Positions 50,425 to 53,630 of a stretch of 64,000 nt of DNA are shown here, piece by piece (position 1 is the first letter of the stretch; the number at the start of each line of letters is the position of its first letter). Below the pieces are notes generated by a model, which saw nothing but the letters and a program-made list of their open reading frames with translations, was not told the origin of the DNA and searched no databases. Origin of the DNA: Streptomyces fradiae (GTDB taxonomy: Bacteria; Actinomycetota; Actinomycetes; Streptomycetales; Streptomycetaceae); contig NZ_CP065958.1 in NCBI RefSeq assembly GCF_041270065.1, positions 5,084,001 to 5,148,000 on the forward strand, given 5' to 3'. Made by a program: the position numbers and the translations under genes.

Positions 50425-50979
50425 TCACTCACCGGCCAGCAGCGCGACCGGGTCGAGGGTGTCCTCGCCCTTGCTCCAGTTGCACGGGCACAGCTCGTCG
50501 GTCTGCAGGGCGTCCAGGACCCGCAGGACCTCCTTCGGGTTCCGGCCGACGGAACCGGCGGTCACCATGACGAACTGGATCTCGTTGTTCGGGTCGATCA
50601 CGAACACGGCACGCTGCGCGAAGCCGTCCGCACCCTCGACGCCGCAGTCGCGCATGAGCTCGTGCTTCGAGTCGGCGAGCATCGGGAAGGGCAGGTCACG
50701 CAGGTCGGCGTGGTCCTTGCGCCAGGCGTGGTGCACGAACTCGGAGTCGCCGGAGACGCCGAGGATCTGCGCGTCACGGTCGGCGAACTCGTCGTTCAGC
50801 TTGCCGAACGCGGCGATCTCGGTCGGGCAGACGAAGGTGAAGTCCTTCGGCCAGAAGAACACCACACGCCACTTGCCATCGAACGACTTGTGGTCGATCT
50901 GCGCGAACTCCTTGCCGCTCTCCAGCGACACGCAGGCGGTCAGGTCGTAGGTGGGGAACTTGTCACCGACGGTGAGCAC
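50425..50979 (-). CDS. ahpC: Alkyl hydroperoxide reductase AhpC, 2-Cys peroxiredoxin
   Basis: The 184-residue thiol peroxidase reduces H2O2 and organic peroxides. The peroxidatic cysteine is in FTFVCPTEIAAF (near residue 52) and the resolving cysteines are in ELCPCNWSKGEDTL (near 164-166), an actinobacterial layout used with AhpD. GTG 50979 is preceded by GGAGAATCACT. In streptomycetes the gene is divergent from oxyR and induced by it; here a TnpB element separates them, so regulation may be altered. Confidence 0.97.
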   Translation of the reverse strand: MLTVGDKFPTYDLTACVSLESGKEFAQIDHKSFDGKWRVVFFWPKDFTFVCPTEIAAFGKLNDEFADRDAQILGVSGDSEFVHHAWRKDHADLRDLPFPMLADSKHELMRDCGVEGADGFAQRAVFVIDPNNEIQFVMVTAGSVGRNPKEVLRVLDALQTDELCPCNWSKGEDTLDPVALLAGE

Positions 50980-51219
50980 AGTGATTCTCCATGCGGATGA
51001 GGGGTTGGACGCATGAAGGCTTTCACACCGGACATCAGGCAGTGAAATCGATCAATCGGGTCAGACTGATTCGTGCCGGTTATCAGTATCCGGGGTCTAC
51101 CGTTCGATTATCGCAGTGATGTGCGCAGGAATCACGGACGAAGGGGCGGGGCAGGGACAGTTCCGGGCGATTCCGGTCGATCGGTAGGCGGCGACGGCTG
51201 CGCGTTCTACGGTCACCCT

Positions 51220-52440
51220 GTGCAACTTCGCTACCAGTTCCGTGCCCGGCTGACGCCTGGGCAGTGCATCCGCGCCGCCAGGGTTTTCGGCTGCAAGCGC
51301 GTGGTCTGGAACGACGCCCTCGCGATCGTGGCACCGCGCAAGCAGGCGAACAGCCTGCTCGGCGGTCCGCGGGCGCGGTTTGCTGAGGGCCCGTACTGGG
51401 GCATCCCGAAGGCCGTTGAGCTGGGGCGGTTGTTGATCACTGAGGCGAAGAAGGCCGCGCGGCGGGCGTTTCTCGCCGATGCTCCAGTCGGGGTGTTGCA
51501 GCAGACCCTGCGGGACCTGGACCGGGCGTGGAAGGCGCACGAGGACTCCAAGTCCGGCCGCCGGCCGGGTCCCCGGGTGGGGCCGCCCGCTTTCAAGAGC
51601 CGGAAGGACATGCGGCAGACGGCGCGGTTCACCGTGTCGGACCGGTTCCGGGTGCTCGATGACGGCAGGCTGCGGCTGCCGAAGATCGGGGACGTGCGGA
51701 TCAGGTGGAGTCGCGATCTTCCGTCGGCGCCGTCGTCGGTGACGCTCATCAGGGATCGGTCCGGTCGATACTGGGTGTCTTTCGTGGTGGAAGCCGATCC
51801 GGTCGCGGACCTGTTGCCGCCGGTCGACCGTGATCAGGGCGTCGATCTCGGTCTGACGCGGTTTGCGGTGCTGGCCGACGGTTCGCACATCGCGAACCCG
51901 AGGTTCCTGCGGCGGGCCGAGAAGAAGCTGGCAAGGCGGCAGCGGGAGCTGGCGCGGAAGGAGAAGGGGTCGAAGAACCGGGAGAAGGCCCGGATCAAGG
52001 TCGCGCGCACGCATGCCGCCGTGGCAGACGCGCGCCGTAATTTCCACCATCAGTGGTCCCACAGGCTGACGCGCGATAACCAAGCCGTCTACTGCGAGAC
52101 CCTGAATGTGCGAGGGATGGGGCGCACCCGGTTGGCCAAGAGCGTGTACGACGCGGGCTGGGCTCAGTTCGTCGGGTTCCTGGAGTACAAGGCCAAGCGG
52201 CGTGGGCGTTCGTTCGCCAAGGTCGACAGTCGGTTTCCCAGCTCCCGGATCTGCTCGTCCTGTGGGCGCCGTGACGGTGCCAAGCCGCTGTGGGTGCGTA
52301 CCTGGACCTGTCCGGGGTGCGGCGTCCGACTTGATCGGGACTGGAACGCGGGGAAGACCATCCGCCGCGAGGGACGTCGTGTCCTCGCGGCTTCGAAGAC
52401 GGCACCATCCCCCCCCGGACCGGGGGCCCGTCGCCGGTGA
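51220..52440 (+). CDS. tnpB: TnpB, RNA-guided nuclease of an IS200/IS605-type element
   Basis: The 406-residue protein starts at GTG 51220, 6 nt after TACGGT and without a ribosome binding site. It has a basic N-terminal helical part, then a RuvC-like nuclease with catalytic acids in VDLGLTRFAVL (about 204-214), the Glu in VYCETLNVRGMG (about 295) and the Asp in LDRDWNAGK (about 372). A zinc ribbon, CSSCGRR...WTCPGCG, lies between the last two. All expected catalytic and metal residues are present, so the nuclease may be active. Confidence 0.92.
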   Translation: MQLRYQFRARLTPGQCIRAARVFGCKRVVWNDALAIVAPRKQANSLLGGPRARFAEGPYWGIPKAVELGRLLITEAKKAARRAFLADAPVGVLQQTLRDLDRAWKAHEDSKSGRRPGPRVGPPAFKSRKDMRQTARFTVSDRFRVLDDGRLRLPKIGDVRIRWSRDLPSAPSSVTLIRDRSGRYWVSFVVEADPVADLLPPVDRDQGVDLGLTRFAVLADGSHIANPRFLRRAEKKLARRQRELARKEKGSKNREKARIKVARTHAAVADARRNFHHQWSHRLTRDNQAVYCETLNVRGMGRTRLAKSVYDAGWAQFVGFLEYKAKRRGRSFAKVDSRFPSSRICSSCGRRDGAKPLWVRTWTCPGCGVRLDRDWNAGKTIRREGRRVLAASKTAPSPPGPGARRR

Positions 52441-52618
52441 CGGTGGCGGTTCATGCCTGTGGAGCGTGTGTAAGACCTGGCGGTGAGCCGGGCGGCGTGC
52501 GCGAACCCCACCAGTGGTGGGGAGGAAGCAGGAACCCGTCCGAAGCGGGCGGCCTCCGCCTCGGAGGCGGCGCGCAGGCGGAGAATCTCTCGCTCTTCGG
52601 GGCGCTGGAGGAGGTCAA
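52441..52618 (+). ncRNA. Probable omega RNA (right-end guide scaffold) of the TnpB element
   Basis: Downstream of tnpB the sequence holds a chain of hairpins: CCCCACC-AGT-GGTGGGG (52506-52522), CCCG/CGGG near 52535, and GCCTCCG/CGGAGGC near 52552-52568, then the terminal block. In this family the 3' part of the tnpB transcript is the guide RNA, with the guide taken from the flank just beyond the element. The 5' boundary probably overlaps the tnpB end and is not defined. Confidence 0.5.
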
Positions 52619-52676
52619 TTGCCCTCGTAGGCCTTTCCTGGGCAAACTGGGTCGTGTTGATCGAAGGTGGTTATCA

Positions 52677-53630
52677 GTGACTCCAGGCCGGCGGGCGAAG
52701 CAGCCCAGCCTTTCCCAGCTCAGAGCGTTCGCGGCGGTCGCCGAGCAGTTGCACTTCCGGGATGCCGCGGCGGCGATCGGGATGAGTCAGCCGGCGCTTT
52801 CGGGCGCGGTTTCGGCTCTCGAAGAGGCACTCGGTGTCCAGCTCCTCGAGCGTACGACGCGGAAGGTGCTGCTCTCGCCGGCGGGGGAGCGGCTCGCGGT
52901 GCGGGCGCAGGCCGTGCTCGACGCGGTGGGGGAGCTGATGGAGGAGGCGGAGGCGGCGCAGGCGCCGTTCACCGGGGTGCTGCGGCTCGGGGTGATTCCG
53001 ACGGTGGCGCCGTATCTGCTGCCGACGGTGCTGCGGCTGGTGCACGGCCGGTATCCGGAGCTGGATCTGCAGGTGCACGAGGAGCAGACGTCCTCGCTGC
53101 TCGACGGGCTGGCGGCCGGGCGGCTCGATCTGCTGCTGCTCGCGGTGCCGCTGGGGGTGCCGGGGGTGACGGAACTGCCGTTGTTCGACGAGGACTTCGT
53201 GCTCGTGACGCCCGAGGGGCATCCGCTGGCCGGGCGGGTGGACATTCCGCGGGAGGCGCTGAAGGAGCTGAAGCTGCTGCTCCTGGACGAGGGGCACTGT
53301 CTGCGGGACCAGGCGCTCGACATCTGCCGGGAGGCGGGGCGGACCGAGGGGGCGCCGGTGACGACGACCGCGGCGGGTCTTTCGACGCTGGTGCAGCTGG
53401 TGGCCGGCGGGCTCGGTGTGACGCTGTTGCCGCGGACCGCGGTGAAGGTGGAGACGGCGCGGAACGCGGCGCTGTTCACGGGGGTGTTCGCCGATCCGGC
53501 GCCGTCGCGGCGGATCGCGCTCGCGATGCGGACGGGTGCGGCCCGCCAGTCCGAGTTCGCGGAGCTGGCGGGCTCGCTGCGGGAGGCGATGCGCCGCCTC
53601 CCGGTCAGGATGGTCGTCCCCGGCGCTTAG
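52677..53630 (+). CDS. oxyR: OxyR, LysR-type hydrogen peroxide sensor
   Basis: The 317-residue regulator starts at GTG 52677 with GAAGGTGG upstream. The LysR winged helix is at about residues 10-68 (LSQLRAFAAVAEQLHFRDAAAAIGMSQPALSGAVS). The regulatory domain has the two redox cysteines in LLDEGHCLRDQALDICREAG near residues 207 and 215, in the standard OxyR context. On oxidation these form a disulfide and activate ahpCD and oxyR. Its normal divergent promoter with ahpC is interrupted by the TnpB element. Confidence 0.95.
   Translation: MTPGRRAKQPSLSQLRAFAAVAEQLHFRDAAAAIGMSQPALSGAVSALEEALGVQLLERTTRKVLLSPAGERLAVRAQAVLDAVGELMEEAEAAQAPFTGVLRLGVIPTVAPYLLPTVLRLVHGRYPELDLQVHEEQTSSLLDGLAAGRLDLLLLAVPLGVPGVTELPLFDEDFVLVTPEGHPLAGRVDIPREALKELKLLLLDEGHCLRDQALDICREAGRTEGAPVTTTAAGLSTLVQLVAGGLGVTLLPRTAVKVETARNAALFTGVFADPAPSRRIALAMRTGAARQSEFAELAGSLREAMRRLPVRMVVPGA

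Follow-up and report, generated by a model that had tools for sequence, protein, structure and literature searches.

TnpB nucleases are thought to hold their own insertions in place; what, then, would such a nuclease do if its guide spelled out the gene next door? The question is raised by a 64,000-nucleotide (nt) window of the Streptomyces fradiae genome (contig NZ_CP065958.1, positions 5,084,001 to 5,148,000 of the forward strand, from a host genome that is a single contig of 7.88 megabases), in which a tnpB gene lies between the peroxiredoxin gene ahpC and oxyR. Read directly from the sequence, this locus has an intact TnpB and right-end RNA scaffold, a guide identical to a piece of ahpC, a fitting target-adjacent motif (TAM) and mismatches to the guide in the host's own ahpC, and the genome has no detectable Y1 transposase. 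The explanation that we favour, with about even confidence, is that a transposase-less TnpB of the IS200/IS605 type has its guide directed at the ahpC of relatives and a resistant ahpC allele linked to it, much as in intronless homing or a cleave-and-rescue pair. The features on which this explanation turns are the following, in window positions:

51220..52440, + strand: tnpB, 406 residues, RuvC residues D209, E293 and D374; PF01385, PF07282 and PF12323; NF040570 at 284 bits against a cut-off of 100
52385..52618, + strand: right end and predicted omega RNA (right-end element RNA, reRNA) scaffold, ending in GGAGGAGGTCAA; 84% mean column identity in an alignment with nine siblings (10 elements)
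52619..52635, + strand: 17-nt guide, equal to the antisense strand of codons 31-36 in other Streptomyces ahpC
50425..50979, - strand: the host's own, guide-mismatched allele of ahpC; PF00578 and PF08534; 184 residues; divergence pattern resembling that of its neighbours
50873..50889, + strand: recoded guide target in the own ahpC, codons 31-36, TTGCCATCGAACGACTT
50870..50872, + strand: TAM-like CAC 5' of that target, retained in the host allele

The guide, TTGCCCTCGTAGGCCTT, reads along the antisense strand of ahpC codons 31-36, and the match begins at the very first base past the right end. The original prediction had the guide copied from the oxyR leader; instead, these 17 nt are a piece of ahpC, in which a fitting TAM adjoins them. 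From 53 ahpC sequences we derived 49 distinct alleles, excluding L004 (the own copy) and L032 and L145 (of other length). Among the 48 distinct alleles other than the host's, 9 equal the guide over all 17 bases, 35 have position 14 as their sole difference and the remaining 4 depart from it at two or three places. According to excerpts of PMC8612924, the flank supplies about 16 nt of the ISDra2 reRNA and cleavage falls 15-21 base pairs (bp) from the TAM, so a match of 17 nt approximates a complete guide. As a result of sequence comparison, the identity between guide and ahpC is well supported.

We considered whether the agreement merely reflects Streptomyces codon usage, KAYEGK being written in preferred codons, with the changes in the host's ahpC unrelated to it. 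Elsewhere in the window, two overlapping 17-mers (starting at 16696 and 16697 and spanning 16696-16713) also equal parts of ahpC alleles, probably by chance, and speak for such a coincidence. The empirical rate speaks against it: 17 of 504,922 17-mers from 80 TnpB loci, some of them near-identical, equal any of the 48 alleles, as do 3 of 63,383 in the window, one of them the guide. Given these rates, an exact match to a chosen neighbour gene would be expected a few times in 100,000, even leaving aside the other agreements, namely that the gene is adjacent, that the match runs from the guide's first base, that the TAM fits and that the host allele is altered right there. We therefore regard coincidence as quite improbable. 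At other TnpB loci, one match of guide to neighbour, with 3 mismatches (L035), was found among 16 guides tested; 83 loci were given, and the others had no recognised right-end motif or had the guide cut off.

The TAM was read from empty sites, by searching relatives with the right flanks of three siblings of the element and inspecting the bases that precede the flank, counting alignments that start within the first 7 flank bases. These bases were TAC in 9 of 9 cases for L038 (counted over the nine relatives whose loci were retrieved, out of a larger number with strong matches), CAC or TAC in 6 of 6 for L035 (L176 stands outside the count; in L173 and L177 the alignment does not start before base 239) and CAC in 2 of 2 for L119, yielding YAC as the TAM of the clade. 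Of L119's relatives L187-L195 we inspected L187-L190, and L187 and L190, whose poor alignments do not begin until bases 15 and 59, read CAG. In every one of the 49 distinct ahpC alleles, the host's included, CCAC stands directly before the target, in keeping with a YAC TAM.

In the host's own ahpC the target departs from the guide at positions 6, 10, 12 and 14. Across the genus position 14 varies; the mismatches at 6, 10 and 12 arose on the host's own branch, where SYEG became SFDG through a synonymous change at S32 and the substitutions Y33F and E34D. The sole other amino-acid change on this branch is V128I, and 3 of the 9 own-branch changes in 552 bases lie within the 17-nt target (hypergeometric P 0.0018). 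This branch test supersedes a P of 4.6e-4, calculated from positions unseen in the 48 alleles, because genome G113 has two of the changes. A motif scan of 120 AhpC homologue clusters found no SFDG and two F33 forms (SFEG). As an alternative source of the allele, import from a distant donor is unsupported: the ratio of ahpCD to oxyR divergence is 0.27-0.60 between the host and 31 relatives and 0.29-0.58 (5-95% range) among relatives, so that the host ahpC looks vertical, probably with no distant import. We give moderate weight to a selective reading of the recoding. In excerpts of a study of one archaeal TnpB (PMC11043419), any single mismatch abolished most editing at a weak TAM, whereas single mismatches were tolerated at the cognate TAM. 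Because tolerance thus depends on the TAM, four mismatches are likely, if not certain, to be protective, and alleles with one mismatch may or may not be cut.

The nuclease and its scaffold appear complete. In the PDB the protein matches an AI-designed nuclease best; next come two natural TnpB chains, 8bf8 and 8h1j (E about 8e-55), both of which we take to be ISDra2 TnpB. D209, E293 and D374 align with 8bf8 residues 191, 278 and 361, the last presumably the catalytic D361, and the RuvC triad is complete. D191 and E278 are named as catalytic residues of ISDra2 TnpB in the parts of PMC8612924 that we draw on. With TnpB family domains and the RuvC D/E/D both present, the protein belongs with the IS200/IS605 TnpBs, and the ratio of nonsynonymous to synonymous substitution rates (dN/dS) of tnpB is about 0.23-0.31 against 7 siblings. 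Across the aligned right ends, the consensus fold shows double-sided changes at 17 of 63 pairs, describing a conserved scaffold that abuts the guide; folded by itself, the host right end does not exceed shuffles in stability (z -0.48). Alignments with the DNA of sibling elements end at 52618 or 52619, except that one (L037) extends to 52622. The sibling alignment thereby bears out the original prediction of an end block terminating at 52618, and its intact nuclease gene stands, with RuvC motifs and right-end RNA scaffold complete. In the predicted minimum-energy fold, GGGC pairs with guide bases 13-16. Separately, TTGCCC...GGGCAA makes a perfect 6-bp inverted repeat across 52619-52645 that does not form in this fold and may be chance or guide masking. 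Rfam and tRNA scans of the window returned no matches.

The intact triad also bears on the idea that the complex has become a regulator, binding its own partly matching ahpC target without cutting and so tuning ahpC, in the manner of TldR proteins. TldRs have a degenerate RuvC and are not known to have nuclease activity. The own ahpC does retain the CAC TAM as well as the 5 opening bases that match the guide; unlike the nuclease-dead TldRs, however, this TnpB has its RuvC triad intact rather than degenerate, and three of the four mismatches fall at positions 6-12. We consider an exapted regulator very unlikely.

How the guide came to stand beside oxyR is a question for the flanks, whose features are these:

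52636..52645, + strand: 10 nt between guide and leader, TCCTGGGCAA
52646..52679, + strand: oxyR-side half of the leader, homologous to relatives by comparison with their leaders, ending with the GTG start
50980..51048, no strand: ahpC-side half of the ahpC-oxyR intergenic region, diverged, with GGGGTTGGACG and CAGTGAAAT retained
51049..51087, no strand: possible diverged duplicate of the oxyR-side half, ending in GGTTATCAGT
51101..51219, + strand: probable element-derived region 5' of tnpB, with CTAC (51097-51100) directly before it
49889..50428, - strand: ahpD, TIGR00777 at 308.9 bits against a cut-off of 191.95
52677..53630, + strand: oxyR, GTG start at 52677; PF00126 and PF03466; best NCBIfam model OxyR PRK11151, 245.6 bits, under its cut-off of 329

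Profile matches and coordinates thus confirm ahpCD on the left and oxyR on the right of an intact tnpB and its right end. Among 60 relatives searched, ahpC loci were obtained from 29 (L005-L033). In 26 of these oxyR lies within about 330 nt of ahpC, in agreement with the expectation that the two genes are usually direct neighbours in streptomycetes; in one (L021) it is about 1.24 kilobases (kb) off, and in two (L012 and L032) no oxyR was found in the 1.5 kb beside ahpC. Where present, the relatives' OxyR is 79-90% identical to the host's. The comparison with empty loci that had been proposed found no TnpB match at the ahpC locus of any of the 29 relatives, making the insertion private among the genomes examined. 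By eye, the gap in L021 (genome G036) holds an open reading frame that reads like Lsr2. The ahpC promoter regions of L012 (G010) and L145 (G383) resemble the host's diverged one.

On the left, homology to the relatives' leaders extends as far as CAGTGAAAT (51048); on the right it resumes at 52646. Between the equivalent positions the relatives have only about six bases (AGCTAG or AGCTAC). Since so little separates the kept flanks, the locus is most economically explained by one-step insertion of a unit with the 27 nt 52619-52645 as part of it. The bases before the equivalent of 52646 are CTAC in 10, CTAG in 28 and CTAT in 1 of 39 leaders (53 loci were given, 39 fitted the pattern and at least 3 genomes were counted twice), and the occurrence of CTAC makes a canonical YAC insertion at 52646 possible. 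On the left, 51040-51086 shares 31 of 47 identities with leaders, a score reached by 0 of 300 shuffles; the part past CAGTGAAAT alone has 22 of 38, reached by 20 of 300. We dropped the notion that 51049-51087 is a duplicated leader half because those 20 shuffles equal its score. Used as a DNA query, 50980-51219 gave partial, weak matches in 6 of 391 other genomes of the genus (best E 3.2e-5). From 51103, the frame 5' of tnpB can be aligned with the N-terminal extension of P0123, an 87% homologue (score 76 against a 500-shuffle maximum of 43), and because P0123 has it too, the region just 5' of tnpB is probably DNA of the TnpB lineage. Against the upstream DNA of 12 more distant siblings the left end compared at chance level, L199 being marginal (27 against a shuffle maximum of 26). 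From the sequence, rewiring of the peroxide promoter is plausible: its ahpC-side half has diverged, and the start codon of oxyR is still preceded by about 31 nt of homologous leader.

These junctions also tell against the explanation that an oxyR-leader guide maintains the insertion at its own empty site. In its favour, the TnpB gene is intergenic and such guides derive from the right flank. What follows 52618 is nevertheless not oxyR leader: 52619-52645, TTGCCCTCGTAGGCC included, match none of the relatives' leaders compared, homology resuming at about 52646. The first 23 bases from 52619 were found, at up to 3 mismatches, in 6 of 392 genus genomes, one being the host and the 5 others having 3 mismatches each; as a search for the source of 52619-52641 this is indistinguishable from chance, a control pattern being matched in 2 genomes. 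The guide is accordingly not the right half of its own empty site, as it would be in a usual IS200/IS605 element, and we attach very little probability to this explanation. The accompanying proposal, that the nuclease targets alleles lacking the insertion, survives in part: it would act against genomes without the arrangement, but the predicted target is the relatives' ahpC, about 1.7 kb from the guide, rather than the empty site.

Can the element still move? The host genome holds a single close copy of tnpB, two other TnpB-like matches being only 32-33% identical, and no match to PF01797 (the Y1 transposase) was found across the whole host genome with a search whose control was positive in 5 of 14 genomes. 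An active IS605 element has a Y1 TnpA in cis or in the genome, and neither was found. With one close copy and no detectable Y1 transposase, the element is presumably unable to move by the usual route. TnpB homologues of 82-88% identity exist (P0122-P0126), four of them (P0122 and P0124-P0126) from Streptomyces sp. NPDC101160, NPDC015232, NPDC053431 and NPDC126499. The host's two TnpB-like genes of 32-33% identity lie at G000:C1:4953756-4954664 and 2948504-2949175. In L041 (about 3963-5800) a sibling tnpB is interrupted by another element with a stretch resembling the siblings' TnpA region.

The same facts sustain the strongest rival, and a serious one: that the element once sat in an ahpC and is now inert beside oxyR, the 17 nt being a scar and the ahpC changes drift or the trace of past self-cutting. 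Beyond the missing transposase and the single close copy, such a relic would account for a left end that is unrecognisable among more distant siblings, and both the 10-nt filler of unexplained source and the diverged ahpC-side promoter half resemble scars. Set against this are the reading frame, RuvC triad and RNA scaffold, all intact, and the dN/dS of 0.23-0.31, though the latter mostly reflects the history of the clade. We judge an inert relic possible, if somewhat doubtful.

Several further observations tell against a guide directed at relatives and paired with a resistant allele. Neither ahpC nor the leader contains a match for the 10 nt at 52636-52645. The nearest alleles of ahpC (L121 and L132) carry one guide mismatch, so the guide best fits a different ahpC subgroup. 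Some 17-nt stretch with at least 3 own-branch changes occurs in 10 of 49 alleles, which means that clustering itself is not rare; such a cluster falls in the target in the host alone. Genome G113 reads CCCTCGAACGTCTTG at the pattern (gene identity unconfirmed), so that two of the three own changes occur elsewhere, the third being unseen among the matches listed. The best other YAC-TAM site of the host genome, at G000:C1:2852713, follows CAC, departs from the guide at 2 of 16 bases and is thus closer to it than is the own ahpC; the count of such sites is at control level (10 against 9). Finally, no second genome with the ahpC-tnpB-oxyR arrangement was seen among those examined.

With these points weighed, we still favour the directed guide and its linked resistant allele. 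From the sequence pattern we infer expression, cutting, protection by the mismatches and homing spread of the TnpB block, in the following order. Transcripts reading past the right end would have TTGCCCTCGTAGGCCTT as their guide, and TnpB would recognise CCAC-TTGCCCTCGTAGG(C/A/T)CTT in the ahpC of other streptomycetes and cut there. Changes at the target in the host's own ahpC, which lies about 330 bp upstream of tnpB, would spare the host. Were the block to enter a relative's cell, for example by conjugation, the resident ahpC would be cut, and repair off the incoming DNA would copy the resistant ahpC and tnpB jointly, amounting to RNA-guided intronless homing or a functional cleave-and-rescue pair. 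As to origin, a former insertion in an ahpC at CCAC|TTGCCC may have supplied the guide, and the element may then have reached the ahpC-oxyR leader with the guide and ten further bases attached; the 27 nt 52619-52645 appear to have come in with it, since the relatives' leader is kept to 51048 and from 52646. Alternatively, the element may have inserted in the resident ahpC, with deletion and repair coming afterwards. By eye, the 27 nt finish in GGGCAA (52640-52645), one base off the right-end terminus GGTCAA (52613-52618). A slipped right-end cut that dragged the old guide along would explain this likeness.

If this explanation is true, an RNA-guided nuclease can abandon transposition and turn into a homing or addiction locus. 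The prediction is sharp: two 17-nt targets, one cut and the other not. In the titles and abstract openings listed by searches of the open-access literature, no TnpB guide aimed at a neighbour gene with a recoded host copy is described.

Among known systems, the locus shares with the IS200/IS605 TnpBs of ISDra2 type the RuvC triad, the right-end RNA scaffold, a guide taken from the DNA past the right end and a TAM readable from sibling sites; it differs in having no detectable Y1 in the genome, a guide that is a piece of neighbouring ahpC rather than of the local empty site, and an altered host target. Synthetic cleave-and-rescue drives, which are engineered and eukaryotic, link a nuclease to a recoded, cut-resistant copy of the targeted gene. 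The pairing of nuclease and linked recoded copy is the same here, whereas this locus is natural and its function only predicted. That it is a natural RNA-guided cleave-and-rescue locus, in which a TnpB freed from its insertion-site guide targets a conserved peroxiredoxin gene genus-wide and spreads with a linked recoded, resistant ahpC as a chromosomal selfish unit, is a stronger claim that we advance tentatively. In a plasmid TnpB gene drive, as outlined in part of PMC11870625, TnpB acts on copies without the element and the guide records the insertion sequence's own insertion site; action against copies lacking the element would be common to both, with the guide here aimed at a separate gene whose linked allele is mismatched. 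TldRs, introduced in the excerpted text of PMC13418256 as RNA-guided transcription factors, likewise are TnpB-derived proteins with a guide toward a host gene, and differ from this TnpB in that its RuvC triad is intact and its own target mismatched. The free-standing endonucleases of phage T4 (SegF with gene 56, SegG with gene 32), as sketched in PMC2988022, lie beside the gene that they target and cut hundreds to thousands of bp away from their insertion site. In T4, and by prediction here, an endonuclease gene adjoins its target gene and the cut site is distant from the insertion site; the Streptomyces locus is RNA-guided and chromosomal, and its mobility is only predicted. Its sequence pattern, a nuclease gene beside its putative target, with the own target mismatched and those of relatives matching, fits intronless homing.

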